From: Manis javanica
Lineage: Eukaryota; Chordata; Mammalia; Pholidota; Manidae
Reading direction: 5' to 3'
NCBI RefSeq assembly: GCF_040802235.1
Contig: NC_133166.1
Coordinates: 118,310,991-118,374,990 of the forward strand
Length of the DNA: 64,000 nt
In this document: positions 8,358-60,397 of the stretch, one piece after another
Layout of the letters: each line of letters begins with the position of its first letter
Numbering within the stretch: the first letter of the stretch is position 1
Translations under genes and position numbers: made by a program
The notes under the pieces: generated by a model
What the model was told of the DNA's origin: nothing
Seen by the model: the letters and a program-made list of their open reading frames with translations, nothing else
The model's database searches: none

Positions 8358-8404
8358 AGCCCGCGGCGGCCGCCTGCGCCACAGTCTTCGTCGAGAGTCG
8401 CCGC

Positions 8405-8438
8405 GGTTTCCTGCTTCAACAGTGCTTGGACGGAACCC
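8405..8438 (+). promoter_or_regulatory. FTH1: Iron-responsive element (IRE) in FTH1 5' UTR
   Basis: The RNA folds as an upper stem TTCAA/TTGGA around the six-base loop CAGTGC (8420-8425), with the internal-loop TGC and bulge C 5' of it and a lower stem GGTTTC/GGAACC. This is the canonical ferritin IRE, bound by IRP1/IRP2 when iron is low to block ribosome loading. It lies about 25 bases from the predicted cap site, as in other ferritin H mRNAs. Confidence 0.97.
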
Positions 8439-8513
8439 GGCGCTCGTCCCCCACCCCGGCCGGCTGCCCAGAGCCAGCCCAGCCCTCCGCCACCTCCTCA
8501 CAGAGCCCTCTGA

Positions 8514-10902
<2,389 letters not shown>

Positions 10903-11060: not shown

Positions 11061-12349
11061 TGGTTGTCTTTGATTTCTTGGGATGGGCTAGAACTGTATC
11101 TGGCCGTCTTCACTGAGTCAGTTACATCAAAATAAAACATCTAAGGAGAATTCCTATTAAACTCCTGAGTTTGGGAAAGATACCAAACATGGGTTATGGA
11201 ATTCAGACAGGACTTAAGGACTCCTGATTCTGAACTTGGTGTTTCGAATTACATGTTTCTAGTTCATTCTAGCCTTCACAGTCTTTATGTACAAAAGACA
11301 TTGAATTGAAACTATTTTCATTATCCATTAAACTAACCATTTAATCCAGGCTGCCACAGAAAACCCATTAAGAGTGGACAGCTACGTGGCTATGAACCAG
11401 CATGACTGGATCAGTGTCCTGCCTGTGTACATGCAGGTAAGACCAGGTCAGTGACATGTCCCTCTTGGGAAACAGGCTGGAAGTGTACTTCATCCCTACT
11501 GAGGATTTTGAGAAAGTTACTGTGAGTGACGGCAAAGGCTGAGACAGTATTAAAAACCAGCAAGTACTGGAAGACTACAGAGCTCTGAGTGCCTAGTCCT
11601 CGGCACAAGACAGACTAGCCCTTGTAAGTTTTCAATCGCAAAGTTGTACTGACTGAAGTAACTGCCTGAAAATATAGAAACAGGAAGTTACACTTCCCAC
11701 AAGATGGGGTTGTGGTGGGGTGGGTCTCATCGGTGAGTTACCATGAAATCTGGAATAAAGGGAAACGTCTGGTGGTTTCATGACAGCTTTGGACTGACCC
11801 CAAGGAAGCAGGAAGAGCACATTGAAGTGAGGTTCCCAAAGCAGTGAAATACCACAAAGGACCTGGACACCCTCCTGGTGCCATCTGCCAATTCCCAGGG
11901 GTGTTTCAGGACCCCGGTGAGTATATGGGGGAGCGTTCACATGCTAAGCCTTGGTGGTGAGGTTGAGTTCTGCCCTGTGGTTTTGGGTCGGCTGCCTGTG
12001 CTGAGAGCTGGGCCTGGGGATACCATCTGTCCGCCATCTTAGGTCTCGCCTGCCAGTCCTTTGCCCAGCATTGGTCCTGTCAGGGCCACCTCATCTTCCC
12101 TGGGTCCCAGGGAAGTCGTCCTGGGGATGTCGGGCTCTTGGGTGAAGAGTGAACATCCCCAACACTTCCCTAGGACTCCTGCTTAGGCAGCGAGGTGTGT
12201 GCCCCAAGCCAGCACTGGGTGTAGATCCAGCGTGTTCTGGCAGCGACGGGACCTTTGGGAACTCATGTAGGAATGGTAGGCTCAGAGCAAGGGAAGTGGT
12301 GGGTGCCGCCCATGGGGGGAACCTGGTGACCCTGGTTTGGGTGGAAGAC
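11061..12349. other. FTH1/BEST1 convergent spacer
   Basis: Apart from the inverted exon-6-like segment at about 11370-11510, the sequence is unique. I could not find a convincing relic of the short last coding exon of BEST1 or its 3' UTR, although they should lie here. Open frames are short. Confidence 0.6.
11370..11510 (+). pseudogene. Inverted BEST1 exon-6-like fragment
   Basis: The plus strand here resembles BEST1 exon 6 and the start of intron 6, which lie on the minus strand at 17075-16940. Collinear shared blocks are GTGGACAG (11374-11381), ACTGGATCAGTGTCC (11405-11419), GTGTACATGCA (11425-11435), a GT donor (GTAAGA against GTGAGG), and TTGGGAAAC about 30 bases into the intron. About 10 extra bases precede the Trp codon. 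It looks like an inverted genomic duplicate rather than a retrocopy, because intron sequence is included. I found no neighbouring exon duplicated. The alignment was done by eye. Confidence 0.6.
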
Positions 12350-12959
12350 TTGCTTTCCAAGGCCCAATAAGGATCTACAAGAGCTTTGAGTATAGTGCGT
12401 ATGCTGATGATCAGTTGTTCCAAATGTGGTTCTCTAAGATGTTCAGGGGCCTCTGGCATGTCCATCAGGTTAAACGAGTTTTCTTCATGTGACCCAATTC
12501 TGGGTGCTCCGCTGAGGCCCCAGCACTGTGGGAGCAATTCAGACTTCGAGTCCCAGGAGCCACAGGTGGTATAGGCTTTGGCCTTTGACAGTGCCATCCC
12601 TGCCTGAGGCTCTGCCTGGACCTCCGGGTGGGAAGACCACAGGGTGGGGCTGAGGGGTGGCTGGGGCACCGGTAGCCTGACCTCCCACACAATGCAGCGG
12701 ACTTGAAGGCATCCTCCTCCGTAAGCTCCCAGGCCTTGCTGTCTTCCTGGTCCCAAGGCTTGTGTCCGGTTCCCCCAAGGTTCTTGGGCTTGCCCTCGTG
12801 GAGAAGGGACTTCTTTCTTGGGCCGCTGGTTTGCTCTTCGAGTTTGTCCTGAGGGGATGGTGGCCATGGGACTGCAGCCCTAGGAAGCGGCCACAGATGC
12901 CCGTGTGACTCCTCCTCCTGCTCCTCCTGATTTGGCTGAAACATCTGTTCTTGTGCCGA
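12350..12959 (-). pseudogene. BEST1: BEST1 exon 10 relic, multiple frameshifts
   Basis: The family tail appears in three frames: FQPNQEEQEEE, then GRFLGLQSHGHHPLRTNS (shifted +1), then SLLHEGKPKN and QEDSKAWEL back in the first frame, and finally NLMDMPEAPE and DPYWALESK in another. The relic is about 610 bases against about 639. The acceptor tttccag at 12960-12961 remains. Confidence 0.88.
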
Positions 12960-14625
12960 CTGGAAAGAAGCAGGAGACTCAGGGCTGGGTGGGGGGACAG
13001 AGGCCGGACCTGGCCTGCCTTCCTCACCCCTTCCCTCTCCACCTGGCCCAGGCCAGGGACACCGTGTTCCTCACAATACCCTGGACTCACCTTCCTCCTG
13101 ACCCATCTGCACCTTGCAATTAATCCCTGCTGGCGCAGCTCAACTGTCTGCAGCTCCCTTTTGCCCATGTTAATACCTAAACTCCTTAGCCTGGCATTTA
13201 AGGGCTTCCTCTCCTTCACCATGTCTCCCCTTTAAAACCCCTCACTCCAGGCAATCCGAACTACTAGTCCCCAGGTAGGATGAGGCCCAGGAGTGGCTCT
13301 GAGTAAGCTAAGGACTTGTGGTTCCAACTGGGGACCAGCATCCACAGGGAGAGAAGTCTGGCTTGCTGGGAGCCCAAGGCCTTTACTCCGCAAGAGCAGG
13401 CCCCCCTACCCCACAGTGTGGCCTGCCCTTGCCTGTGTCCAAATTCTCCCCGTGCTTCACAGCCCAGCTCCAGGTCCAGCTGGGTGGGTCTCTGTTCTGT
13501 GTTCTGTCCCTTTTCCAGACATCTGGTACTTTGTACCTTGTATTTAGAGCCTGAGCCTTGGGTTTGAGCTCCCTTACTAAACTGTGATCCTTGGCAAGTT
13601 CTACGCATCATTATTGTCTGTGATCCATCTTCCCCCATCCAACCTTAGGCTGCTGGAGTATAGACCATATAAAACTCAAAGGTGACCCCCAGAAATGCTT
13701 CTGACCTAAGCAAGCCTCCAACCTTCACTTGATCACTTTTTCAAACCTTCCTCACACCATCTAGGGGCTCTAGCTAAATCTAATTACAGCGTAATAAGAT
13801 ATTCAGTTTTTAAAAGAGAATAATGCTTAGTAGTAGAGAATTCTCAAGGACAGAACAGTGCTTAACACTGCAGAAGGGAACCCTGAAACACACCAGCCCT
13901 CTCCAAGTCCTCTCCACTGTCTCATCCTGGGCAGACGGATTCTGACCAGGGAAATAGGAACCACGTGGAAGAAAGTTTGGCTGCTGTGGGTGACCCGAGG
14001 CCTGTACTGTGCGCACAGAGCCTACCCAGAAGATACCAGTGATGACCCCGCCTCCCACTGGGACATGCTTGCTGCCCCTCCCCATCCGGAGACGTCCTCT
14101 TCCACTCCCCATCCATGCACCTAGCTTATCAGAAAACAATTCTGGACCAGAGTCATGGAACCAGGCCCTGACATCCCAGCTGTATCACTACCACTGACTG
14201 TCCTTAAATAACTCCCTTCTCTTTCTGGTCCCCAGTGTCCAACTCTGGACATGGGGGGCTTAGGCTGGAGGTACCTAAAAACTTACAGCTTTAGGAGTTA
14301 CTAAGCAGCACAAGGTAAGTAAGAGTTAAGGATGCGGAGGTGGAACGAGACTCACCTGGTGTATATATGCCACTTGCTAGCTATGGGACCTTGGGCTGGA
14401 CAACCTACTTACCCTCTCTAAATTTGGACTTAGTCATCTGAAAACTGGAGATAACCAACCAGGGTCATTGGGAGGAAACAAAAATAATACATATAAAGAG
14501 CTTAAAGTACCTAGTAGAGTACCCAGCACTCAGTACCCAGCATGTATGAGCTAGTGCTATTCTGTTCTTAGGGCCTCACACTTGGGGCCTTCTAGCCACC
14601 ACAGTGGTTCTCTAGCACTGCCCAC
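12960..14625 (-). other. BEST1: BEST1 relic intron 9
   Basis: Contains a MIR-like piece near 13545-13620 and a good sense MIR at about 14330-14560. Otherwise unique sequence; the short open frames have no family resemblance. Confidence 0.7.
14330..14560 (+). repeat. MIR SINE
   Basis: Sense MIR order: 'gccacttgctagctatggga' + 'ccttgggc', 'tacttaccctctctaaattt', then 'gaaaactggagataa' and the 3' part 'aaagagcttaaagtacctag'. Full-length-like but diverged. Confidence 0.75.
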
Positions 14626-14777
14626 TTGATGTTGAAGGTGAAGCCTAAAAAGAAGGGTCGGTGAGACTGGGCAAAAGCGGCTGTGCAGGGGGGATATGGT
14701 TCTAGCTCATTCCAGTGCATGTCCCTCTCCATCGGGGGCAGGTCCTGGTGCATCTCGTTCATAGCCAACAGGGACAC
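14626..14777 (-). pseudogene. BEST1: BEST1 exon 9 relic, still open
   Basis: Full length (152 bases), with acceptor accag and donor gtgggc. It encodes [20 protein letters not shown] and onward to FTFNIK, clearly the start of the bestrophin cytosolic tail, with many replacements. Confidence 0.9.
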
Positions 14778-15073
14778 CTGGTTGCCGGGGACAGAGGGAG
14801 AAGTCCAACAGGAAGGCCAGTGTGAGCAGGGCCACGGGCTTGTCAGATGACTTCAAGAGGTCACTGCCTTCTCTCTGGGCCTGTTTACGTACTTGTGAAA
14901 TGGAGAGACCAGTGCCTGCTGGTAGTCTCAAAACTTGGGGTGAGAATCCTGTAAGTGAATGGTTGGCTGGGGGTGGGGGAGAATTCACAGTGCAGTCTCC
15001 CTACAGAACTGTAGGTCCCCTTCCTGGGTTCAGTTTGGGGAGGATCCATGGGTCAGGCTCTCTCCCCCGATAC

Positions 15074-15151
15074 CTGCAAGCTCCTGTCAATCCAGTTAAT
15101 CTCAAAGTCAGCATCATCCTCTCCAAATGGGTTGATGAGCTGCTCTGCCAC
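15074..15151 (-). pseudogene. BEST1: BEST1 exon 8 relic, one codon lost
   Basis: Encodes [20 protein letters not shown] then IDRSLQ, against the family [27 protein letters not shown]. This is the EDDDD Ca2+-clasp segment, one of the most invariant parts of bestrophins. One of the four aspartates is Ala here and one Val codon is deleted. Donor gtatcg. Confidence 0.9.
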
Positions 15152-15757
15152 CTTGGGGACTGGTGCAGCTCTGGGAATCCTGCTAGAACCTGCAGCCTTT
15201 CTTCCCACCCTTAAACCTTGGCTCCTGCCATCTGCACACCCACCGTGCTGCCCTTCCTGCCTGACCACTATCTCCAAAGCCGTGGTGTAAGGGCTCCAGC
15301 CACCCACCTGCTCACAGACCCCTTCCCTTCTGGACACGGAGCCCAAGCCCCTCTGACTCTCTTGAACCAGCCCTTCCTTGAATACCCAGAGCTGTCCTAG
15401 AGCGTGTCACTCAGCCGAGTCACCACTTTTGCCTCTCTTCCCTGGATCTTCCATGGAGTTGCCTAATTTGATGCATTTGTTCATTTACTCATTCATGTCT
15501 TCAAACATCACTAGTTCCTTCCTTTCTAATGTGACAGATGTGCTGAGGCTGTGCTAAAGTAAAGGGGGGCCCGGGTGGACAAATACCTGTATAGTAACCT
15601 CTGAAGTCCCCTAACAAAGCCCCACAGTGGCTTGAGCTGCCCTAAGAGTTCGAGGGACATCCTGCAGTCACTGGGGCACCACTGGAGAATTTCAAGCAGA
15701 AAAATGGTGTGATCTGTGGAAACCAAGGATGACTGGGGGAGGCTGTGGCCTGAATAG

Positions 15758-15760
<3 letters not shown>

Positions 15761-15797
<37 letters not shown>

Positions 15798-15804
15798 ATG
15801 TGTG
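15761..15804 (+). repeat. (TG)n microsatellite in BEST1 relic intron 7
   Basis: About 18 TG units with one gcatg break near 15797. The ORFs across it are repeat-derived. Confidence 0.95.
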
Positions 15805-16535
15805 TAGCATGGACAGGAGGGGCAGAGGGGAGACCCACCACTGCCAATGCCACAAAACAAAAGAAAGGAAGAGATGGAGAGTAGGTGAGAAATGGAAGGA
15901 AAGAAAAAGACAGGAGAGGAAACTATTATTCAGAACTCCTAGGCGGAAGAGTACTGGATCCAGTGGGAAGGAATACTTGGATAAACCACTTGGGGTGGAG
16001 ATGAGACCCCCTGTCCCCCACCCCATCACACCACCCCGCAACAGACATCTCAAGTAAGGGGAGGTGGTGCTACCACGCCTTCTAAAGGGTGGGGCCCGGG
16101 GGTGGTTAACTTCAGGACTTCTGTTTTACCAAGCAGAGGGACAATGTGGGAAAAGAGCCTAATTCTGGGGACAGTGAGAAGTTGCCTCACCAGCAGGGCC
16201 TGCCACTGCCATTCATATCCCATGCATTCCTTGTTCCTCCAGAACATTCTCTGGAGGAGGCATCAAGTGGTTTGATGACAACTTTCCCCATGTTTCTGCT
16301 GCCTGTTCAGTTCCAGGTCTCAGGTGAGGCACTGAGATCAGACACAGGCCTCAAGCAGGTCCCGCTTCCCTTTGGGTCTCAGCTTCTTCAAATATAAGGA
16401 CACGGGGAAAAAGTGGACCAGAAGGTCGTGGTTGGGGTCCAGCACCACACTTTCCACGTCTGAGACTCTCCTTTCCTGACTGGCTAGGACCCCGCCAGCC
16501 TCGCCACAGCCCAGCCTTGTTCCAAAGAGTTACAC

Positions 16536-16675
16536 CTTCAGCCAGCATAGAACTGCAGGACCGTGGAGGCAGGTAGCGCAAGGTCTAGCTCACGGCCAGG
16601 GTAGGCCTTGGCTGCATCCAGGAACTGCCACCCGATCAGGCGCGGAAAGGAAATGTACACCACCATGCCCACCAG
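16536..16675 (-). pseudogene. BEST1: BEST1 exon 7 relic, frameshift and TGA
   Basis: Conserved blocks are WQFLDAAKAYPGRELDL and TVLQFYAG. The exon is 140 bases against 153. One codon is missing near the start, the FFF run is cut to F, and a further 4-base loss leads straight into TGA at 16540-16538. The donor is the weak gtgtaa. Confidence 0.9.
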
Positions 16676-16997
16676 CTGGGAGCGAAAGGAGGAAGCAGCA
16701 GGAATGGGCTGGGTGCTCCTGAGGATGGGAGGAGGAGGCCTTGCTTTGATTTGCACACCCATGTGACTGTGATCTCTTCTCTAAAACGGGGATAATCACT
16801 CTGCTTCCACTGGGCTAGACCAGGCAACAGCTCTGGGACTCTTCGAACTTGGCACCAAAAAGAACCTGTGAAGTCCAGACCTGACTCCCAGTCTAAGCCT
16901 CTTAGCTTCCCAGTGAGCCCTTCCCATGACAGACTGCTTCCTGGGTCCTCCTAGCCTCAGTTTCCCAATGGGGAAGCTTCACCCACCTAGTCCTCAC

Positions 16998-17075
16998 TTG
17001 CATGTACACTGGTGGGACACTGATCCAGTGGTAGGCATACAACTGTCCACACTGAGTATGCAAGGTGTTCATCTC
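16998..17075 (-). pseudogene. BEST1: BEST1 exon 6 relic, still open
   Basis: Full length (78 bases), with acceptor cccag and donor gtgagg. It encodes EMNTLHTQCGQLYAYHW then ISVPPVYMQ, against the family EMNTLRTQCGHLYAYDW, ISIPLVYTQ. Uncommon changes such as D to H before WIS suggest drift without constraint. Confidence 0.9.
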
Positions 17076-17139
17076 CTGGGGGGCAGAAGGGAGGGCTGGG
17101 GTTCTGATTGCCATGTGCTCTGCCAGGCTCACCCCCCAG

Positions 17140-17260
17140 CTCTTCCCCAGGTACCAAAGTCTGGTGCTCATGGTCCAGCCCTGGCTGTGTGGTCATGGGA
17201 AGCTCACTAACTTCTCTGTGCCTCAGCCTCTTCATCTATCAAAAAGGAACCAAGATCTCA
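17140..17260 (+). repeat. MIR-like relic in BEST1 intron 5
   Basis: Contains 'gtgtggtcatgggaagctca' followed by 'ctaacttctctgtgcctcag' and 'cctcttcatctatcaaaaag', the diverged sense MIR core. Confidence 0.55.
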
Positions 17261-17465
17261 GAGGCTCACTTTAGGAGAGGATGGGAGGAGGATTTGGGAA
17301 AGGGACAACCTTTGGCTGTGGAATTTGCTAAAAAGACCCTAACAATCCCTGGGCAGGCTGTAGGAAGACCCTCAGAGGTTCAAGCCTCTTGGTAGGCAGC
17401 CTTGTTCCACCTGGGGCACAGCACACCCCCAGCCTGCAGCAGCCGCACCTGTGCAGTGGACTCAT

Positions 17466-17608
17466 GTCTGGCAGGCTCTGGAGCAGGACAGAGTCCCGGA
17501 CTTGACCTCCAATTCATGCTTTCAGTGGCAGGTTGGCAAACTACATCCAAGGCACCCAGAACATGTTGGGTGGCAAGCTGAACTTTTCTAAGTGATTGAG
17601 TTAAAAGC
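17466..17608 (-). pseudogene. BEST1: BEST1 exon 5 relic, two nonsense codons, lost donor
   Basis: NMFWVPWM is followed by TAG at 17543-17541 where the family has Trp (VWFANL). FANLPLKA is followed by TGA at 17516-17514 where the family has Trp (AWLGG). Both stops are in the frame that aligns on either side. Near the start a net 12 bases are missing. The donor, which should read gtgagt after 17466, is atgagt, so the invariant +1 G is gone. Confidence 0.93.
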
Positions 17609-17754
17609 CTGCAGGGTACAGCCAAGAAGCAAATGGGAGGGGGTACCTTGCAGAAGGGGTGGCTGGCCGAGGTAGCCAGAGCCAGCCCTGCCGGGGTCTA
17701 GGGTTCAGGCCCAATTCCACAGGGATCTCGGAGACCCTTCGCCGCCCTCTTTCT

Positions 17755-17812
17755 TTCAACAAATAATTATTGAGTACCTATAATGTGCTGTTCTGGGCTC
17801 AGCACGTGAGAG
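17755..17812 (-). repeat. L2/MIR-like end
   Basis: 'caacaaataattattgagta' followed by 'cctataatgtgctgttctgg' is typical of old LINE2/MIR ends ('ttattgagcacctactatgt' consensus). A short relic. Confidence 0.5.
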
Positions 17813-18183
17813 GGGTCTGTCTGATCATCAGGACCAGGTCAGGCAAGGCCGAGGGAAGGCGAGAAACTGAAGTCCTAGACGTGCAGACTGGAAACGGGGA
17901 GGGCACAGGGAAGTAGACCCGACTTTCTCACCAGTACCCAAGGCCCCGCTCTCAGACTGGGCTGTTCCCTCTTCCCTCAAGGGTCTTTAACGTTCTCCAA
18001 GGGTCGGCTCCTGGCCTCGCCCCACTCTCAGGCCCCTGACTTCGCCCAGCCCGATTCCACCCCGGGGTTTCGATTCTGTTCTGCTCCTGGTGCCCCCAGC
18101 CCCAGCCCAGGGGCCTCTGGCTGCACCCATCTCCGGCTCCGCCCCCGACCCCGGCAGCGCCCCGGCAGCCCACAGGCTTTCAC

Positions 18184-18390
18184 CTTTCACCGAATGCTGG
18201 GAACTGGGAAAGCGCTTGGCGCCAGCGGCGCCGGCCCTGCTGTGCAGAATGCGTCCTGTGCCAGGTTGGCGTAGTCTGGGAGCGTGCTCCGCACACAAAA
18301 CCGGGCTCGTCCTGTCCTCTATGAGGCTCGACGCCAAGTTCGTGAGGCTGTCGGGCCAGGGCAGGTGCTCGGACAGGTTCCACCAGCAGG
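18184..18390 (-). pseudogene. BEST1: BEST1 exon 4 relic, 5' loss and several indels
   Basis: Recognisable pieces are WWNLSEHLPWPDSL (family RWWNQYENLPWPDRL), RTLPDYANL in a second frame, and KRFPSSQH in a third. The first about 30 bases of the exon (FYVTLVVT region) and its acceptor are not recognisable. The donor gtgaaa remains. It lies in GC-rich DNA. Confidence 0.85.
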
Positions 18391-18851
18391 AGGGGCGGGG
18401 AGCTAGGGGCCGAGGGCCCAGGCTGCGGCCAGGAACCAGCGAGGGCTATGCCTCGATTTCTCCAACTTTCTAATGGGGGCAGGCCCAGCCCCAACCCTTC
18501 TGGCAGATGTCCAGGAGGGAAAGACCGTAAGAGACCCGCATGAGGGCCCAAGGGTCTTAAGTTCTTCCTCTGGGGCCCTTCTGTCTGTCCCAGAAATCCG
18601 CCAGACCCCTCCCCTCCTGCGCAGAGGCTCCAGGGACTATAACGTCCGCGCAGCCCTCATAAAGTGGGTCTTGAGTGCGAACAGCAGGTCGTCCTTCCCA
18701 GTGTCTGACAAGTCCGCCTGGCTGCAGCCTCCCCATTTCCCTGAACTACCGAGAGGCACTGACATGCCACTGGCCTTCCCCAGCTTGCTCCGGGGGTCCG
18801 CCAGTCTGGAGCCTGGAGCCCCCAGACCGACACGCGGAAGGGGGCGCTCGC

Positions 18852-18944
18852 CCAGCAGGAAGGAAATGGGAATGGGCTGGGGGTAGCTGTTGCAATGCAG
18901 TCAGCTGCTCGAACATCACGTGCTGCTCATCAGTAAGAGCCATC
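18852..18944 (-). pseudogene. BEST1: BEST1 exon 3 relic, 2-base deletion
   Basis: The acceptor (ccgcag) is followed by MALTDEQHVMFEQLT, close to the family LALTEEQQLMFEKLT. Two bases are then lost where the family encodes LYCDSYIQLIP, and the rest reads out of frame. The relic is 93 bases against 95. The donor dinucleotide is GC (gcgagc) instead of GT. Confidence 0.88.
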
Positions 18945-19253
18945 CTGCGGTGGGGCTGAGAAGGTGGAGATGTGCAGACACTGGGAGGCCATGTCGAGAC
19001 GGGTCCCGGGGCCAGTCAGGCCCACAGTCGGGGTGTGGCTGCCTCTGTGCTGCCCCACCCCCACCCTGTCCCTTTCCCTGGAGGGGCCTGAGGTCCCTCC
19101 TCTGTTCTGAGCCGCATCCCACTCCTCTTCTGGCAGCCCCGAAACCCAACGAGGCCTCTGCTCCACGGCTGGAGGAAGCCCTCTAGGGAGGTTTTCCATG
19201 AGGTTGTAGAAAAGGGGGTCCTATTGAACAAGTCAGTTGTTGGCACTGTTGAC

Positions 19254-19512
19254 TTTTAAAAAATTTTTTTATTAAGGTATGGTTGATATACACTCTTATG
19301 AAGGTTTCACATGAAAAAACAATGTGGCTACTATATTTACCCATACTATCAAGTCCCCACCCATACCCCAATGCAGCCACTGTCCCTCAGTGCAGCAAGA
19401 TACCACAGATCTACTATGTGCCTTCTCTGTGCTACACTGTCTTCCCCGTGACCCCCACACCATGTGTACTGAACATAATACCCCTCAGTCCCCTTCTCCC
19501 TCCCTCCCCACC
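19254..19512 (-). mobile_element. Lineage L1 3' UTR, antisense
   Basis: It starts with a T-rich run (the reverse of the tail), then 'attaaggtatggttgatata' and 'cactcttatgaaggtttcac', the reverse complement of the L1 3' ends at 22705-22998 and 33340-33460. It is a 5'-truncated, non-coding insertion in the dead BEST1 intron. Confidence 0.85.
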
Positions 19513-19689
19513 AGGGCACTATAGACCTTTTTAAAGGACCCAAAGGACAGTTTGAAGGCAGGATGAAACGGAGTATTCGGTCTTTAGACATGTATGGTAG
19601 GGAGGGCTGACTAGGCAGAGCCCAAAGGGTTTTGAGGGCGGTGACACAAAGACAGGCCATGGGGATGCCTGTCTTTACACATTTGCCCA

Positions 19690-19920
19690 AACCCATGGAA
19701 TATACACCCCCAAGGGTAGACCCTAATGTGAACTATGGACTTTGACAATGGTGTGTCCACATGGGGTCATCTGTTACAACAAAGATACCACTGCTGTGGG
19801 GTGTTCATAGTGGGAGAGGCTGTGTATGGGTGGGTACAAGGCTATAGGGGAATTCTGTACCTTCTGCTCAGTTTTACTGTGAACCTAAAACTGCTCTAAA
19901 AATAAAGTATAGTTTGTTTT
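19690..19920 (+). mobile_element. Old L1 3' end
   Basis: L1M-type 3' UTR: 'accctaatgtgaactatgga', 'gggtgttcatagtgggagag', 'gtgaacctaaaactgctcta', then 'aaaataaag'. Diverged and 5'-truncated. Confidence 0.75.
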
Positions 19921-20468
19921 TCTGTCTGTTTAAGTATATCGGTGCACTAGTAACAACCAAAGGGAATCAATGTGCTTTGTTATTAGGACGATCATTATGA
20001 ACTCAAGAATCATATGTATTTGACATTGCTTAATCCATTGCAGTCATTAAAGCTTTTTCCATTTAAAATCCTATTCGTATTTTCTGTGATTGTATCTGTC
20101 CTATATTTTACTATTTAAATCAACATTTTTATTGGGGAATAAAAAGTATGGTCTGTGCCTGTGAGCCTGTGGGATTCCAGAAAATGGGCTGGCTGAGAGG
20201 GACCAGGGAAGGCCTGGGTTCCAGGGCCGCTGCCTGGGTTGGAGGAAAGGGGGTCTGAGACACCCCCAACCTGCTTTGAGCTGTGCTCCCTCCCAGTCTG
20301 CCTCCTCCTGTCCCTCCCCCCAGCTCCCAGCCCCCAGGGCTTGGCCACAAGCGCAGCTCAGCTTGTTGTCTCTGATGCATGGGCCCCTGGATGGCTGGGA
20401 GGCCCCCTAGTTGCTCCAGCACCCAGCTGCACCCCTCTTGGGCCCTGGCCGCAGCCCGCCTCCTGTAC

Positions 20469-20609
20469 TTGTAAATGAAGTGGAAGGTGTAGCATGAGCA
20501 GGAAGCTGCACAGAGCAGCAGCTTGTAGATGCCGCCTCCCAGCACGGCAGCACACAGGCAGAGCAGCCTAAGCAGGCGTTAGCCACTGGCTTGAGTAGGT
20601 GATGGTCAT
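20469..20609 (-). pseudogene. BEST1: BEST1 exon 2 relic (start exon), frameshift and stop
   Basis: Reading down from 20609, the sequence begins ATG with MTITYSSQ, the highly conserved bestrophin-1 start. One base is then missing relative to the family: the frame continues into a TAG at 20570-20568 (codon 14), while the shifted frame shows VANA-LG. Further on, GGGIYKLL and HFIYK match the first membrane segment, but the residues between them are scrambled. The relic is 141 bases against 152 in human. The donor gtacag survives. Confidence 0.9.
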
Positions 20610-22683: not shown

Positions 22684-23012
22684 AAAAGAATGGCCTGGAA
22701 ACTTGCTGCACTGATGGACAGTGACTGCATTGGGGTATGAGTGGGGACTTGATAATATGGGAAAATGTAGTAACCACATTGTTTTTTCATGTGAAACCTT
22801 CACAAGAGTGTATATCAATCATACCTTAATAATAATAAAAAAAAAGAATGGCCTGGATACTACACTGATGGACAGTGACTACAATGGGGTGTGTGGGGGG
22901 GACTTGATAATATGGGTAAATGGAGTAACCACAGTGTTGGTCATGTGAAACCTTCATAAGAGTGTATATCAATGATACCTTAATAATAATGATAATAAAG
23001 AATGGCCTGGAA
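22684..23012 (+). mobile_element. Two tandem L1 3' ends separated by a repeated host motif
   Basis: Two copies of the lineage L1 3' end lie head to tail: 22705-22841 ('ctgatggacagtgactgcat' to 'ataccttaataataataaa') and 22862-22998. The host motif aagaatggcctgga occurs before the first, between the two, and after the second (around 22686, 22844 and 22998). This pattern is expected of target-site duplications around two insertions, or of a local tandem duplication. Both copies end in imperfect TAA-type tails. Confidence 0.85.
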
Positions 23013-50900: not shown

Positions 50901-53900
50901 TACAGTTGGGGAAGCAGGGTCAGAGGATTTCAGTGACTTCCAGGGGCTCCTGCGTACCCCAAGTCAGAGCCTGGCACAGACCCCAGGCTTGCCCAGCCCT
51001 GGGTTCTGCTCCCAACCAGTCTCCCTAGGCCTGGCCCTCCCTCCTGGGAAGCAGTTTCTGGGCCTGAGCAGAGTCTGAGAAGCCAATTCAGCCCAGAATT
51101 AGGTCAGATTTCCCTGCTGCAGCCAAGGAGGAGCGTCAGAGTCCCTGGCCTAGCAGCCCTTGATCGCTAGACAGATTGTGCCAATTCCACCCCCTATGCC
51201 TATGTGGCCCTGGGCAAGTTCCGTCACCTCTCTGAGACTCCTGCCTTCATCTGTAGAATGGAAACAATACCAGGGGCGCTTTGAGAGCTTCAAATGAGAT
51301 CACAGGGGCAGAGCGCCCTGTGTAGCATGTGGACAGTGCACTCCCCCGGGTGCAGACCCCAGCCTAGAGCTGCCCCAGCGCTGCTGCATCCCCACAAGCT
51401 TCAGGGACCCTGTTGTCAATGAGACCCCCCCCACACACAGGATTAGGGAAGATCTGTGTCTGGCGTAAACACTGTTGATAGAGCATTGGATGTGTGTTCC
51501 TGCTTTATTCATCAAAGCCTGTGTCCCTGCCTGAAGGTCCTTGAAGGCCGCACTCCAGGCTAGTTTGAAAGCAGAGAGCAGGCCAGGCTGGGCAGCTGGG
51601 CAGAGCCACATGGAGGGCTGGGACACGGGCTCATTGCTGGGTTCCCTGGGACGAAACAGGTTCAGGGACTGCTTGGTGAGCACCCCAAGGCCCAGAAGAC
51701 AGGGAGAAGGGACTGTCCCCAGCCTTGCCTTCCATATTCCCCTCAGCAACCCTGAATCCCACAGCCCCTTGGCCCTGTCTTTCCTGCTTCCTGTGCGGGC
51801 TCCCCTGAGCCCCCTTCCCTCCACTTCCCCACTGTTATCAGGTGACCTGGCCCAGCCCCCACCCTCAGTTCAGTCACTGCGGCTTAGAACCTTCTGGCTC
51901 ATGAGCTGCTGGTTTTGCTGAGTGAGCAAGTCCCGAGGTGCTGTCTTGGCACAAACCAGTGCTGGCGGCGGCCTCTCCTTCCGCCGTCCCTCCCCACTTC
52001 TCCCCTTTTCTCCCTTCCCCTCTCCCTCCCCACGGTCTGCAGCAAGGTGGGAGTGTGGATGGTGGGGGGGTGCGTAGGCTGTGGCCCCACCCCACACGGC
52101 CTCTAGGTCTCCAGCTTCAGGGAGAGAAGGGTCCTGAGGCCCAGAGAGGGGGTGTCTGCCTGAGGTCCCAGGGTAGACTGGTGAGAGCTGGGACTGCTCC
52201 CCACGAGGTCCACAATTAGGTGCTGTTTTCAGTCTTCCTGTCTCAGCCCTGTCCACCCTGGCTGGCCATTCCACTCTGGTCCACCCTAAATGGAACCAAA
52301 TTTGCATAACGTTTGCATTAACAATGACAGCAAAGGCAGTTCTTCTCACTTAGGCATCTGCTGTGTGCCAAGGTTTATGCACATCTCTGATCCACTCAGT
52401 GTCCCTTCAGGCAGGGCCACTGGGATTGTCCCACTGCCAAAAGGGGAACACAGGCTCTCACACTGATGCATTCAGAATCATCTGTCGGACAAACACAGAC
52501 TGAGCACCTGCTGTGTGCGGAGCACAGCCCTAGGCCCTGGGCTGCAGGGGGTGGTTGACAAAGGTGAATGAGCCCCATCCTTCGGTCATGCTGCCCTTGT
52601 GACAACGCTGGTGATATCCTCACCGGGCAGACCGAGGCCCAGAGTGGCAGACGCACTGCCCACGGTTAGTCCCTGGGCTCAGCTCTCCAGGTCTCAGGAC
52701 CCCATCCTGTATCTGCTGTTTGCCTCGCAGCCAGCCCTGTCCAGACGAGGGCCACCCGCCACCCCTCAAAGCTGTCCCAGTCCCCTGGAAGAGCGTGGGC
52801 CCCTGCAAAAGCCACGGGGAGTCCCCAGGAGGTCGGATGGAGACCTCTGTCAGGGAGGAGGCTCAAGGAGAGGAGGGCCCTGCAGCCACCCAGCTGGACG
52901 TGTCGCGCCTACGCAGCTCTTCCATGGAGATCCGGGAGAAGGGCTCCGAGTTCCTGAAGGAGGAGCTGCTCAAAGCCCAGAAGGTGGGATCCAAGGGCGG
53001 GGCAAGAGAGCCCTGGGGACTAGGGGCCCGCCTGGGACAGCTGTGGGCTCTCACTGAATGCCCAGAGGTACCGCACACCTGTCAAGGCCACTGGCATGCC
53101 ACGCCTGTGCTGGCCACGGGGGAGGTACAGACAAAGGACAAACCTGGTCTCCCCGACTTGTAAATGACTCTCAGAGCCTTAACTTCTCTGAGCTCCTATT
53201 TGGAGCTCTAATAAATTGGCAGGTGGGGTTTCAACCCCATGCTGTGAGCTGAATGGAAAATGCATCATAAACTATGGAGCAACGCAGGAAGTCAGCTCTG
53301 GGCCCAGAGGGCTATGTAATGGGTATGGAGCCTGTTGTCAGGTGGGCCTGGTCCCCCAAGTGCCAGGCTTGGGGTCCCCTGTGGCCCTGACAGCTGCTCA
53401 CCCTGTGCCCCCAGGAGCTGAAGCTGAAGGATGAGGAGTGTGAGCGGCTGTCCAAGGTGCGGGAGCAGCTGGAACAGGAGCTGGAGGAGCTGACAGCCAG
53501 CCTGTTCGAGGTATGGTGGCCAGCCAGCCCTGGGGGCAGCCTGGGATGGGTCTGCTTGACGTGCCTGGCTCCTCACCACTCACACAGAACTGCCCTCTCC
53601 CCAGGAGGCCCACAAGATGGTGCGAGAAGCCAACATGAAGCAGGCGGCATCTGAGAAGCAGCTGAAGGAGGCCCGGGGCAAGGTGGGTCCTCCCAGCCTG
53701 GCAGGTGCTGACCTGTGCTTCCCCTCTCGGACCCCCGCAGGCCTGGTGCAGCCACTAAGGGTGGGCAAGCCAGGGACTGGAAGGGTGGGGCCAGGCTGTT
53801 GGAGGTGGCCGCTGACTCTGCCATTTCCACTGCACGCAGAGGCCTTCCTGGGGCCCTTCAGGGCCTCGGAAGATCCACCCGGCCGTGTGGGCCGCAGCAG

Positions 53901-56900
53901 GTAACCTCCTCCCTTGGAGCCTTTTTGTCCACGAGGCCTGGGCTCTTCCTGGGTTACAGCGTGACATCAGACAGGCCATGTCTCCTTTTTGAGCCTCAGT
54001 TTCCCTATGTGAAAATGGGTGCCTCAGTCCCCATCTCCAAGGCTGTTCCAAGGGTAATGGGTGGGGTTAGGTGCTAGTTGTTGCTGCGGCTGGCTGTCCT
54101 GAGCTGGTGGCCGGTGGTGGTAGCCAGGGCGACACCAACTCCAGGCTAAGGTTGCTGGCTGTCTCGTCCTGGGCAGATCGACATGCTGCAGGCAGAGGTG
54201 ACAGCCTTGAAGACACTGGTCATCACGTCCACACCTGCTTCTCCCAATCGTGAGCTTCACCCACAGCTACTGAGTCCCACCAAGACCGGGCCCCGCAAGG
54301 GCCACTTGCGTCATAAGAGCACGAGCAGCGCCCTCTGCCCTGCCATGTGCCCTGCTGCAGGACACACCCTCACCCTGGACATGGAGGGCAAAGAGGTGAG
54401 GGGTGGTGGGTGGCAGTGGACACAGGGAAGGATGCAGTGATCACCATCCGCCGGTGGGGCCCAGTGAGGACCAGGCCTGACCTCTGTGTGATCTGCAGCC
54501 TGTGCTCCCCTCTCTGGGCCTCTGTGTCCTCTGTCTGAGCTGGCTGGACAGGCTCCTCATGATATGAGGGGCATGGCCCTCAGCCTCCGTGCTGTGCAGT
54601 CTGGGGGGTGCCTGATAACCACTCCCCACCCTTCCAAGCAATAGGTGTTATTTTCTGCTCCTGGAGTTGTTCTTAGGACTGAGGGCCGGCCCTTGGGGGT
54701 CTGCAGAGACACACACTTCCTCAGCCTAGAGGCTGCCTTAGCCCTGTGTGCCTGTAGCCCTGAGGCCTAGCGCCACCTTGTGACATTCCTGGACTTGAGG
54801 GTCCTCAGAGCCCTCAAGCTGTGGTGCCGAGACAGTTGTGGCCTTTGAGGGGCTGTCTCCCTTGCCCTCAGCTGGGTGAGGTCGTTGGGCCAGGCTGGAC
54901 ACTGGACCGTGAGATGTCCTTGGTCGTGGGTCTTTGGGCAAGTGAAGCCACCTGTCAGCGCCTCAGTTTCCTCACATGAGTGGGGCCTTCAGAATGTCAG
55001 GGGCTCAGCTCAGGGCCTACCCAGCGAGGGCGGTAGTGAGAGTCCGCTTCCTGGGGTCTGCGATGCGAGGCAGGCCCCAGCTCTGTGCCAGTCTGTGTCT
55101 CCAGAGCTTCCAGGCCTCTCAGCCCCCTCTGAGCTCTAAGCTTCCGACCGGACACTAACATCTCCTTCCTGTTGTCTGTCTGTGCGCCGTCTGCCTGCCC
55201 CACCGGCCGCCCGCCCAGCCCGGGCTGGCCCCGCTCCTCTCCCTGCTCCTCTGCGTGGTCCCCAGCAAGGCGGTTCACCTCACCTATGAGCCGGCCTGGC
55301 AGCTCCCGCCTGGGGAACCCCCTGAGACCCCCACCTCCGCTACCTCTCTCTCCTTTTCCCGACAGGTAATGGCTCCAGAGAGAGGCTTCCCCCTCTGCCC
55401 AGTCCCAGCCTCATTCACTCTGCATGTGCCCCCAGGTGGCAGCGAGTTGCCCTTCAGAATATGTTCCTTCCTGTGCCCATGTGTGTGTGGGGGGGGACGC
55501 TTGGGGACCTGCATGTACCTGTGGGGACCTGCAGAGTAACTCTTCAGCTTCTCCTCCTCAGTTGGCAGTGGAGGCCTTCAAGACAAGGCCCCAGACCCAA
55601 GTCTGTAATCATGCAGTGCGAGGAAACCGAAAGCTCACCTGGGAGGGAAGCTCTGAGTTCTAAATTCTTGTGCAAAGGGGAGAAGGGAGTTCTTCCTCGG
55701 GCCCAACTTCCCAGCGTGGCCCCAAGGACAGACCTGCTGGCACGCTGGGGCCTGCCCTACACCCCCCTGGTTCTCTACCTCCCCCCACACTGCCTGGCTC
55801 ACCTCCTGCAGGTGGACACAACCCTGTTTGCAGAGTTCCAAGCCTGGAGGGAGTCGCCCACCCTGGACAAGACCTCCCCTTTCCTGGAAAGGGTGTACCG
55901 GGAGGACGTGGGTCCCTGCCTGGACTTCACCACGCAGGAGGTGAGGCAGGGCAGAGGGCGGCCAGTTAGGAGGCCCAGCCCCCGAGCCAGCCGCCAGCCC
56001 CTCACCAACCCTGCCCACCACCCTGGTCTGCCGCAGCTCTCTGCACTGGTCCGGGCTGCTGTGGAGGACAACACACTCACCATCGAGCCGGTGGCTTCAC
56101 AGGCACTGCCCACAGTGAACGTGGCTGCAGTCAAGTGTGGGAGCACCAGGTAAGCTCAGAACCCTTTACTCTCCTGCCACCTGAGAAAGTCCCATATAGG
56201 CTGGGCTCTGCCAGGGCGGCCTGAGCCCCAGGCCTGCCTACGGGGGTCCTGGGGTGGGACCTGAGGGTGGGCAGGGGCCATGGCATACCAGCTTGGCAGG
56301 AGAAAGGTGGGAACTGCTCCCCTGCAGGGCAAGGAGGCATCTTTGGCAGAAATCCCTGTCTCCAGTCATGGACCCCCAGGCACCCCAGTGGGTCCAGGCG
56401 CTGGGGCCTCCCTCTTCCTGGCTGGCCTGGTGTGTGTCCCCCTCCTGCTCCGCCGCTCTCCCACAGCGGATTCTGGGCCCCAGTTGACATGTAAGCGATG
56501 TCAGCTGTTGGCCTTGCCTTCTGCTAATAAATACCCGAATGGCCCTGGCGTCTTGTCTTCCTGCCGCTCAGCTGACATTGAGCAGCCGCTAGCAGCAGAA
56601 CAAAATAGCTAGGGTGGGGCAAGGGGCAGAGCCTGGTGAGCACCTCCCTTGGCGGCCCAGAATCTGGCCTGCAAGGGAGGCCCTATGGTGGGATCCTTGT
56701 CACAGAGGGGGACAGTTTGCCAAGCAAGGAAGGGCCTTGCAGGCAGAAGGAACAGAATGAGGGAAGGTATGAGACACTCGGGTTTTAATGGCAACACCAC
56801 GGGCCAGTAGGTGGAGCAGTGGGGTGGGCAGGGCAATGGGGCTGAGACTGTAGAAGGGGCCTGTGGCCAGAGTGTAAAGAGCCTGGAATGAGGTTTGGGC

Positions 56901-59900
56901 TTTAATTCAATAGACCAGCTTTAACTCGATAGACTCCTTTTCCTTGAAAAGGGGGTTCCCCATACCAGTCAGAGTCACAGTGAACCTGGGGGCAGCAAAG
57001 ACTATGATAAGTCCCGCAGCAAAGGAGCCTATGTAGCCTTCCTTCACTCAGGATTCTCTGTAACTATTTGCTGGCCAGCAGGAAAGCAGCAGGGAACAAT
57101 GATGGGCTAGATGTGGGAGCCCCTGCCTGTGACGTGTAATATGTAACATGGAGAAGAAGGGGAGAGACGAGGCAGAGGGCTGGCTGGAAGGAGCTGAAGG
57201 GTTCAGGGCAAAAGGGGTTCCAGGCGCTGCTGGCATGATCTACCCTGTGGACTTGGTGACCAAGTAGAGGAGAAAGTATATACCTGCTCAGCTGGGAGAA
57301 GGGACAGAGTCAGCCCCAGTGAAGTAGGTGGGGGCATTTTTTTAGCTGCTCTGGCGGGTAGAGCTTGAGTAAACCAGATGTGAGCGTGACCAGTCTCTTT
57401 TGCCCAATAGGGGCAAGATCAGGGCGGTTAGGGATAGGGTCCAGCTTGGTTTAAAGGTCAATCCCAGGGATTGGGGTTGCCCCCTCTCCTAGGCCTGGCC
57501 CTGGGCTCCTTGGGAAGCTGGGGCCTGGGGAGAGGGTGCCAGGCCCCACCCCCATGTCTGTTTGCCTGCTGCCCCCACCTTCTCCCTGTGCATCCTGCTT
57601 GCTGCTGCATCCTACCTGCGTGAGCCAGGTGGCAAGCCCCAGCTGGCCTCTCTGGCCCCCTCTGCTTGCCCCTAGTACATGTGCCCTGAGCGGGCTGGCT
57701 CGTGCCTGTCACCATCGAATCCGGCTTGGGGACTCCAAGAGCCACTACTACATCTCGCCGTCCTCCCGAGCCAGGGTGAGTCATCCAGTGGGAGTGTCAC
57801 TTGGCTCCTCAGGGGCTCCCTGCACTGGAACCTGGGAGCACAACCTCTATCTACAGAGAAGGGCATAGGCTCACAGAGGTACAGAGACTGACTTGGGCCA
57901 CCCAGCCAAGCCAGGTATATTAATTTGCTATTACTGCTTAACAAATTACCATAAATTTAGTGCTTATAACACCCGTTTATTATCTCACTGTTTACCTGGG
58001 TTAGGAGTTCGGCACAGCTTAGTTAAGTCTTCTCAGGGTCTCATGGGCTGTGTCCAAGAAGTCAGATGGTTACACCCTCTTCTGAGCTCACGCGGCTATT
58101 GGCAGAATTCAGTTCCTTGTGGGTGAAGGACTGAGGCACCTGTTTTCTGGCTTGCCAAAACATGATCGTGGGAATGGTACCTGTCACCTCTGTTGTTTCA
58201 TGTAACCTAGTCAAGGGAGTGACACTAGAGTTCAGGTTGAAGTTCCAGACTCCTGACTCTTGGCTTGGGCTCTGGTGTCATGCTTTCCAGAAGGTTCTGG
58301 GGCATGTCTGTCACATGAGCCTGACAGCCATGGGTGCTGAGGGATGTCCAGGAATCCCAGTTGTTGCCCTCCCTTTTCGGGTGACCCAGGTTGGATCAGG
58401 GGACCTCACTGAGCTGGGGGTAAAGATGGGGTGTTAAGAGGATTATAGGGAACAACACAGAATCTGTTTGAAAAACTCTGAAGCATGGTGCAAAGATATA
58501 ACAGTGTGGACAAGCCCTCTTTGGGGAACCATCTCCTCCCCTCCCCTTAACCTACCAGAGGTTCTTCATGGAGACTTAAGTGGACAAATGGCTCTGTCAC
58601 TGGGCAGCAGACTGATCAGGGAGGGCAGCTTGTCTGGTCCTGACAGCTTCCCCAGGGTATCCAGCGAGTTCCTGGCACCCCTCACCCCCTTGTGGGCAGC
58701 AAGCTGGGCTCCCATTTACAGATGGGGAGTCGGAGCCTTAGAAAGGAAAGGGGTGTTTCCCAGGGCCATGCAGCCTTGACCTGGGGTCTCCCCGTTCTGC
58801 ATCCAGTCTCATTGCTGCAGCCTCCACCCCATGCATCTGGGCACACAGCCTTTTTGTGGCTCCAGATCCCTTTTCCCTTTCTGATCCCAACCAGGGTTCA
58901 ACAGAAGGATCCACACCAGACATTCCTGTGCCCAGTGACATCTAGAACTTCCCCCGGCTGGGGCCCCATCTCCCCACTGCTGAGAGCACTGGCCACTAAC
59001 GGCTCGTAGGTGCCCCTCTGTGCCCCTCACCCCCACAGACCTCAGCCAGTGACTGATGGCTCAGGGGATATAAAGGGCCGGCCTCTTGCCCCAGGGTGGA
59101 TCCCCCTCTGGGATCCAGAGCCCCTGTGGATCAGGCCACAGAAGGCTCCATCTGAAGCCACACCCTCCTTTGCTGCCACTCCACATTCTGTCTCCCTTCC
59201 TCTCCTGTGAGTTGCATAAAAATCTTTTGTCTTAGGCTCTGCTTCTAGGGAAACTAGCCTAAGACCAGGCGGAAGGTGGTGGCTGCTGTGACTCCATTTT
59301 CTCCACGTGTGAAATGGGATGACAAGCATGTCTGCCTCATTAAATGCTTGATTAAACGTTAGTGGCTGCTGTTGTCTGTATCAGGATAGTGATAGCACTG
59401 CTATTGTTAATTCAACTTCAGAGCCCAACCCTGTACCATTCAGGGAGCATTATGAGGCTCTGACCAGACGTGGGGATTCCTGCTGTGATCTCCAAGCTGC
59501 CCTGGCTTTTGGGGCAATTGTGAGGGCTGGCGGGTCACAGCCTGCGTGTTTCTGCCCACAGATCACGGCAGTGTGCAATTTCTTCACCTACATCCGCTAC
59601 ATCCAGCAAGGCCTGGTGCGACAGGACGGTGAGCGCCCCCTGGTGGCCGGCGGGGATGCGGGGAAGGCTGAGGGTGGCCCGGGCAACCCACGTGCTTTGC
59701 GGCAAGGACTTACTTAGTGAGGGGGAAGTCTGTGGGTTAGTGAAAGTCTGGCGAACCTCCCGGTGCTGAGTTCAGTGGAGAGATAAGCTGCAGAAGGACC
59801 CTCCCGGCCCTGCCTCCCCAGGAAAGCTACCGGGATGCCCACCCCAACCCCTACCCCCACCCCCGGGGCCCGGGAGGGACATTTCCTGTTACTGGCCTGA

Positions 59901-60397
59901 CATTCAAGGCCCTGCACCATGATGTGTCCCTGTGAATCTCCTCGCCCCCCTGCTGTGGCCTCATGGCTGTCCACCTCCCACTGCAGTGTGAGACCCCAGG
60001 GAGGCGGGGCTGGAAAGCGTTTGCAGACTGTCAGGTACATGGCCCTGTGTACGTGCATGTCTGTGTCAGGCTGTGAGGGTGACCATCGCCTCTGCCACCA
60101 GCGTGGTATAGACCCCTCGAGTGTGTTAAGCACCCAACAGTTTGCAAGTTCTCAGGGTGGAGCCTCAGAGAGCTCCAGCCACTCACCAAGGTCATCTGTC
60201 CTGGAGGACTGGGGAGCCCTAGGGTGCCCACCAGCTATCCTGCTCCAAAGTCAGGGGAGGGGGCTTTAGGTCATCCTGAGCTGTCACCAAGCTGTCCTCC
60301 CCCTTTGCCTACAGCGGAGCCGATGTTCTGGGAGATCACGCGGCTGCGGAAGGAGATGTCACTGGCCAAGCTTGGCTTCTTCCCCCAGGAGGCCTAG
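44886..60397 (+). CDS. RAB3IL1: RAB3IL1 (GRAB), guanine nucleotide exchange factor for RAB3A, ten coding exons
   Basis: Exons 44886-44896, 52731-52983, 53415-53510, 53605-53682, 54177-54395, 55812-55940, 56037-56149, 57676-57775, 59562-59628 and 60315-60397 join in phase to 382 aa, the human length, all with GT-AG introns. The protein activates RAB3A, and RAB8 as reported for the GRAB/Rabin8 family, in vesicle docking and exocytosis. The Sec2-type coiled coil, the exchange module, runs from about residue 68 to 165 ([20 protein letters not shown], then [20 protein letters not shown]). A Ser/Pro/Thr linker (about 166-219) follows, then the conserved C-terminal half ([61 protein letters not shown]), and the end [11 protein letters not shown]. 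The start MWSG is the family start. No disabling change is seen. Confidence 0.97.
44897..52730 (+). other. RAB3IL1: RAB3IL1 intron 1
   Basis: A 7.8 kb, GC-rich intron with scattered MIR relics (47270-47330 and 51160-51300 sense; 52340-52440 and 52600-52660 antisense). Several long open frames (for example a 203-codon one at 49105-49716) have no family resemblance or splice support. Confidence 0.85.
52731..52983 (+). CDS. RAB3IL1: RAB3IL1 exon 2 (residues 4-88)
   Basis: Pro-rich N-terminus ([14 protein letters not shown]), an acidic EEAQGEEGP stretch, then the start of the Sec2 coiled coil. Acceptor cctcgcag, donor gtggga. Confidence 0.95.
53415..53510 (+). CDS. RAB3IL1: RAB3IL1 exon 3 (residues 89-120)
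   Basis: Heptad-rich coiled-coil core of the Rab exchange domain, ending ELTASLFE. Phase 0 at both ends. Confidence 0.96.
53605..53682 (+). CDS. RAB3IL1: RAB3IL1 exon 4 (residues 121-146)
   Basis: Encodes [20 protein letters not shown] and then KEARGK. The [15 protein letters not shown] segment across exons 3-4 is the Rab-contacting part of Sec2-family proteins. Confidence 0.96.
54177..54395 (+). CDS. RAB3IL1: RAB3IL1 exon 5 (residues 147-219)
   Basis: Encodes the end of the coiled coil ([15 protein letters not shown]), then a basic, Ser/Thr/Pro-rich linker with likely phosphorylation sites ([17 protein letters not shown]). Phase 0 at both ends. Confidence 0.95.
54768..54786 (-). promoter_or_regulatory. 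CTCF-like motif, reverse orientation, RAB3IL1 intron 5
   Basis: The reverse complement reads ATGTCACAAGGTGGCGCTA, matching the CCACnAGGTGGC core with one change. Confidence 0.5.
55219..55365 (+). CDS. RAB3IL1: Candidate in-frame cassette exon of RAB3IL1 (49 codons)
   Basis: A 147-base open block sits between a pyrimidine-rich acceptor (ccgcccgcccag) and a good donor (cagGTAATG), phase 0 at both ends. It can be inserted between exons 5 and 6 without disturbing the frame and would give a 431-aa form. It encodes a hydrophobic start ([14 protein letters not shown]), then [20 protein letters not shown] and a Ser/Thr end. The paralogue RAB3IP (Rabin8) is known for alternative inserts after its coiled coil. 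Use of this exon is inferred from sequence only. Confidence 0.6.
55812..55940 (+). CDS. RAB3IL1: RAB3IL1 exon 6 (residues 220-262)
   Basis: Encodes [20 protein letters not shown] and then [16 protein letters not shown], a block conserved with Rabin8. Phase 0 at both ends. Confidence 0.96.
56037..56149 (+). CDS. RAB3IL1: RAB3IL1 exon 7 (residues 263-300)
   Basis: Encodes [20 protein letters not shown] and onward. The tail AAVKCGST differs from the human AEVDCSST, so it is the least conserved part of the C-terminal half. Donor gtaagc, phase 2. Confidence 0.95.
57676..57775 (+). CDS. RAB3IL1: RAB3IL1 exon 8 (residues 300-333)
   Basis: Encodes [20 protein letters not shown] and [13 protein letters not shown], a Cys/His-containing, highly conserved segment of GRAB and Rabin8. 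Confidence 0.96.
57912..58190 (-). mobile_element. MaLR (MLT1-like) LTR relic, antisense, in RAB3IL1 intron 8
   Basis: 'gtatattaatttgctattac' and 'acaaattaccataaatttag' mirror the 3' terminus of the LTR at 30735-31205, in reverse orientation. Non-coding relic. Confidence 0.6.
59562..59628 (+). CDS. RAB3IL1: RAB3IL1 exon 9 (residues 334-356)
   Basis: Encodes [22 protein letters not shown], nearly invariant in the family. The donor gtgagc lies in the edge of a CTCF motif (59631-59649). Confidence 0.96.
59631..59649 (-). promoter_or_regulatory. CTCF motif, reverse orientation
   Basis: The reverse complement CGGCCACCAGGGGGCGCTC agrees with the CTCF consensus almost perfectly. It begins two bases after the GT of the RAB3IL1 exon 9 donor, so splice donor and motif are constrained together. 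Confidence 0.75.
60315..60397 (+). CDS. RAB3IL1: RAB3IL1 exon 10 coding part (residues 356-382)
   Basis: Encodes [20 protein letters not shown] and GFFPQEA, then TAG at 60395-60397. The 3' UTR follows to about 61.2 kb. Confidence 0.96.

Follow-up and report, generated by a model that had tools for sequence, protein, structure and literature searches.

The stretch of Sunda pangolin (Manis javanica) DNA analysed here, 64,000 nucleotides in all and referred to below as the window, carries FTH1 and RAB3IL1 on its plus strand and, between them on the minus strand, the relic of BEST1, whose coding exons 2 to 10 lie in ancestral order over 8.3 kb, from the old ATG at 20609 down to 12350 (Table 1). 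BEST1 encodes an ion channel located at the back of the eye, and its loss leads to retinal disease in humans and dogs. The gene order FTH1, BEST1, RAB3IL1 is that of the human genome, which we take to be the ancestral place of the relic. Both flanking genes were found to be intact and conserved, as the original prediction had claimed. The FTH1 exons join into a complete 183-residue frame with GT-AG borders, preceded by an iron-responsive element, while the translation of the RAB3IL1 exons is 100% identical to the annotated M. javanica protein over a 377-residue query, a match that identifies the species. Besides the iron-responsive element, an Rfam scan of the window returned nothing, and a tRNA scan of the window found none. 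Repeats at 19240-19540, within intron 2 of the BEST1 relic, and at 22684-23011 resemble each other by eye; the former looks like what is presumably the end of a LINE, and the latter is a tandem repeat of 2.1 copies of 154 nt.

Table 1. Coordinates and state of the genes, exon relics and RNA element in the window.
Feature	Position	Strand	State
Iron-responsive element, upstream of FTH1 start	8404..8439	+	Rfam RF00037, 55.9 bits
FTH1, four coding exons	8577-8690, 10091-10237, 10506-10631, 10738-10902	+	Intact
BEST1 exon 10 relic	12350..12959	-	Eight frameshifts; AG acceptor; GT at donor position
BEST1 exon 9 relic	14626..14777	-	Frame open, length as expected, splice sites present
BEST1 exon 8 relic	15074..15151	-	One codon (3 nt) deleted; frame open; splice sites present
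BEST1 exon 7 relic	16536..16675	-	13 nt under expected length; two splice sites present
BEST1 exon 6 relic	16998..17075	-	Frame open, length as expected, two splice sites present
BEST1 exon 5 relic	17472..17594	-	Two in-frame stops; donor AT, not GT
BEST1 exon 4 relic	18185..18385	-	Three frameshifts; GT donor retained
BEST1 exon 3 relic	18850..18946	-	2-nt frameshift; AG acceptor retained; donor GC, not GT
BEST1 exon 2 relic with old start codon	20468..20609	-	Two frameshifts, net 11 nt short; GT donor present
RAB3IL1 coding exons	52735..60394	+	Matches annotated M. javanica protein

The nine exon relics were placed by frameshift-aware alignment to horse BEST1, from 20609 downwards. Their alignment scores ranged from 99 to 570, in search stretches chosen from earlier matches, against best random scores of 24 to 53, and every relic scored above the best of its 60 random stretches, which were drawn from both strands of the 22-51 kb part of the window. 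This bore out the earlier claim of nine relics in ancestral order and orientation. The borders and expected lengths of the ortholog exons were those of the human gene, most of which agree with the splice sites found. For exon 10 the alignment spanned 12953 to 12334, thus running about 16 nt into the intron, and the end of the relic at 12350 was set from splice borders. Exon 11, which codes for a few residues, was not identified at the locus.

The conceptual BEST1 pieces were then compared with known structures and domains. In the PDB they matched bestrophin-1 with 356 bits, as against 168 bits for the top-scoring chain that is labelled Bestrophin-2 and 171 bits for a chain labelled only Bestrophin, which we take to be bovine BEST2, and the Pfam Bestrophin domain was recognised in them with 126 bits. 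Judged by these matches, the relic belongs to BEST1, as had been proposed, and not to a paralog; another bestrophin was accordingly rejected as its identity. Intron sequence is present between the nine relic exons, with AG or GT where expected at most of the borders examined. Introns and borders having been retained, the relic is not a processed copy, and a processed pseudogene was rejected in favour of decay in place.

The BEST1 relic carries several disabling changes and not a single one. In total, the alignment contains 14 frameshifts, divided over exons 2, 3, 4 and 10 as two, one, three and eight, together with the two stops in exon 5, and translation from the old ATG ends after 13 residues. 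Both stops, TAG at 17543 and TGA at 17516, stand where the ortholog has Trp. The first nine codons of exon 5 could not be aligned, and the first 10 codons of exon 4 are unrecognisable, as are its acceptor and the donor of exon 5. Exon 7, being 13 nt under its expected length, breaks the frame ahead of exon 8. The damaged exons are the same six (2, 3, 4, 5, 7 and 10) that had been listed previously. Counting against decay are exons 6, 8 and 9, which have open frames and splice sites.

The residues that can still be read were compared with those of other mammals. Relic and horse BEST1 are identical at 360 of 513 residues (70.2%), whereas at the same sites the horse protein is 85.6-90.3% identical to those of the set's eleven other laurasiatherians. 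Of 179 sites at which 31 mammals do not vary, 49 are altered in the relic. By comparison, the 12 control mammals printed showed no change (eight species) or one change (four species) at 179-180 sites, each species being scored at the sites on which the 30 others agree. In unbroken, gap-free blocks, 16 of 73 invariant sites were altered in the relic. Taken together, these comparisons indicate that selection on the BEST1 relic is relaxed. The counts of exon 8 (1/22) and exon 10 (0/4), lower than those of the other exons and low if drift alone had acted, are perhaps due to chance, and as nine exons were counted, a single low value is unremarkable. In exon 8 (15074-15151), 21 of the 22 residues invariant among mammals are still unchanged, a higher retention than in most of the other exon relics.

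If neutral, the relic has accumulated, with all sites counted, some 0.14 replacement changes per site (bootstrap 0.10 to 0.19). With the rate assumed to lie between 3 and 1.5 changes per billion sites and years, this corresponds to 47 to 95 million years. Since alignment near frameshifts can inflate the date, the unbroken blocks were also counted, giving 0.11 replacement changes per site and 37 to 73 million years. These dates are rough, being derived from assumed neutral rates and a protein-level comparison in one species. They overlap the 46 to 77 million years reported for the inactivation of ten pangolin tooth, jaw-muscle and taste genes (PMC12906968).

A second source of sequence was found in public read assemblies, namely P0243, a protein of 289 residues. 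P0243 matches the exon 10 relic over 12944-12615 at 97% and over 12648-12094 at 96%, in both cases ungapped and in the same shifted frames. Being ungapped in these frames, P0243 appears to share the eight frameshifts of exon 10. It differs from the window by about 16 nt near 12620, where it seems to be without the deletion found in the window; it could come from a different pangolin species or a different allele. In the exon 10 relic and next to it (window positions 12091-13222), the shifted frames are open over long distances, from 159 to 258 residues; P0243 follows two of them, and automatic annotation may therefore list them as protein.

The pangolin locus is in the orthologous place, has retained its introns and shows numerous disabling changes together with altered mammal-invariant sites. 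It is highly probable that the Sunda pangolin has here its ancestral BEST1 locus, which lost its function long ago and has since decayed with little or no selection on its protein. A dead duplicate could be envisaged instead, with an intact BEST1 elsewhere in the genome, and the protein database offers some room for this: its entries are grouped at 90% identity and each cluster is shown under a single name, so that a functional Manis copy could hide under the name of another species. However, no Manis protein named bestrophin-1 occurred among the best 120 of 3296 and the best 120 of 828 matches, and within the window the two orthologs whose matches were printed fit the BEST1 relic only. Moreover, the relic holds the ancestral place between FTH1 and RAB3IL1, as in human, and a duplication would therefore require the moved copy to be the live one. 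We consider an intact copy elsewhere very unlikely.

Less probable still, if anything, is that the channel was lost while selection continued to act on exons 6 to 9 or on the DNA of that part, which might, for example, have a regulatory role. The absence of frameshifts from exons 6, 8 and 9 and the single altered invariant site of exon 8 would agree with such a role. In contrast, however, exon 6 (4/15) and exon 9 (6/21) are altered at invariant sites like the rest of the relic, and exons 6 to 9, when joined, give no continuous bestrophin reading. A remnant of exons 6 to 9 that still codes for protein was rejected, as exon 7 breaks the frame. Finally, error of assembly or sequencing in an intact BEST1 was rejected as having next to no chance of being correct: small indels, which are the most frequent error in certain long-read assemblies, make up many of the lesions, and the match to annotated RAB3IL1 is no independent check of quality, since that annotation may stem from the same assembly, but the adjoining coding exons of FTH1 and RAB3IL1 are open and free of indels, the invariant-site substitutions and unrecognisable exon ends are not patterns of error, and P0243 follows the same shifted frames of exon 10. 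With introns kept and damage far above sequencing error, the original prediction of a pseudogene in place was upheld.

Decay of the ancestral locus would have proceeded as follows. In an ancestor that was nocturnal and burrowed, selection on the eye would have been relaxed before BEST1 was lost; the loss would have taken place on the pangolin stem branch or early in the history of the group, with no functional copy expected elsewhere in the genome. The retinal pigment epithelium would since have functioned without the BEST1 chloride/bicarbonate channel, or a paralog would have substituted for it. Relaxed selection on vision is thus a plausible cause of the loss. We think it likely that BEST1 was lost on the pangolin stem, at about the age of the tooth-gene losses, which would make all living pangolins natural knockouts that still use their eyes. 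If this is true, the pangolin pigment epithelium would reveal how a mammal manages without the BEST1 channel. A mammal lineage without BEST1 would be a natural test of when the channel is dispensable and of which paralogs or transporters may stand in for it.

The original prediction had known of no described natural loss of BEST1 in a mammal. The hint that there is none proved wrong, as PMC7671337 (Sharma and Hiller) and PMC9355568 (Indrischek et al.) list BEST1 with other eye-disease genes that mammals, for the most part subterranean species, have lost. These two papers were also the only literature found for pangolins together with BEST1 or bestrophin, and no pangolin BEST1 loss is named in the text of theirs that was examined. 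Neither BEST1 nor bestrophin appears in the main texts of PMC8851862, PMC5643096 and PMC10671557, and the word BEST1 occurs in papers on birds (PMC7566403 on owls and PMC6714440 on raptors). Among database records, bestrophin-1 of the naked mole-rat is filed as LOW QUALITY PROTEIN and an isoform record of the star-nosed mole starts within exon 4; both fit the published subterranean losses.

Other losses are known from the pangolin lineage itself. Descriptions of pangolins give them a nocturnal, partly burrowing life and poor sight (PMC9355568, PMC4876002), and the retina of a tree pangolin is reported to be without the short-wave cone opsin (PMC4876002). Loss of SERPINE3 in pangolins has been reported in the context of small eyes, poor vision and a nocturnal, partly burrowing habit (PMC9355568), and losses of melatonin genes have likewise been reported (PMC7613276). 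To these known losses BEST1 adds an eye gene.

The pangolin locus compares with these systems as follows. The losses in subterranean mammals (PMC7671337, PMC9355568) are alike in gene, in being natural and in their association with poor vision, but they concern subterranean mammals, and pangolins are not named for BEST1 in the text examined. SERPINE3 (PMC9355568) resembles BEST1 in being eye-related and lost in the same lineage, yet it is a different gene of a different protein family. The tooth, taste and melatonin losses (PMC12906968, PMC7613276) are, like BEST1, pseudogenes of the same lineage, whereas they affect other functions and their dating drew on several pangolin species, the BEST1 date given here coming from one species at the protein level only. 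The pangolin is thus not the first natural BEST1 loss to be reported in mammals; it is a clear added case.
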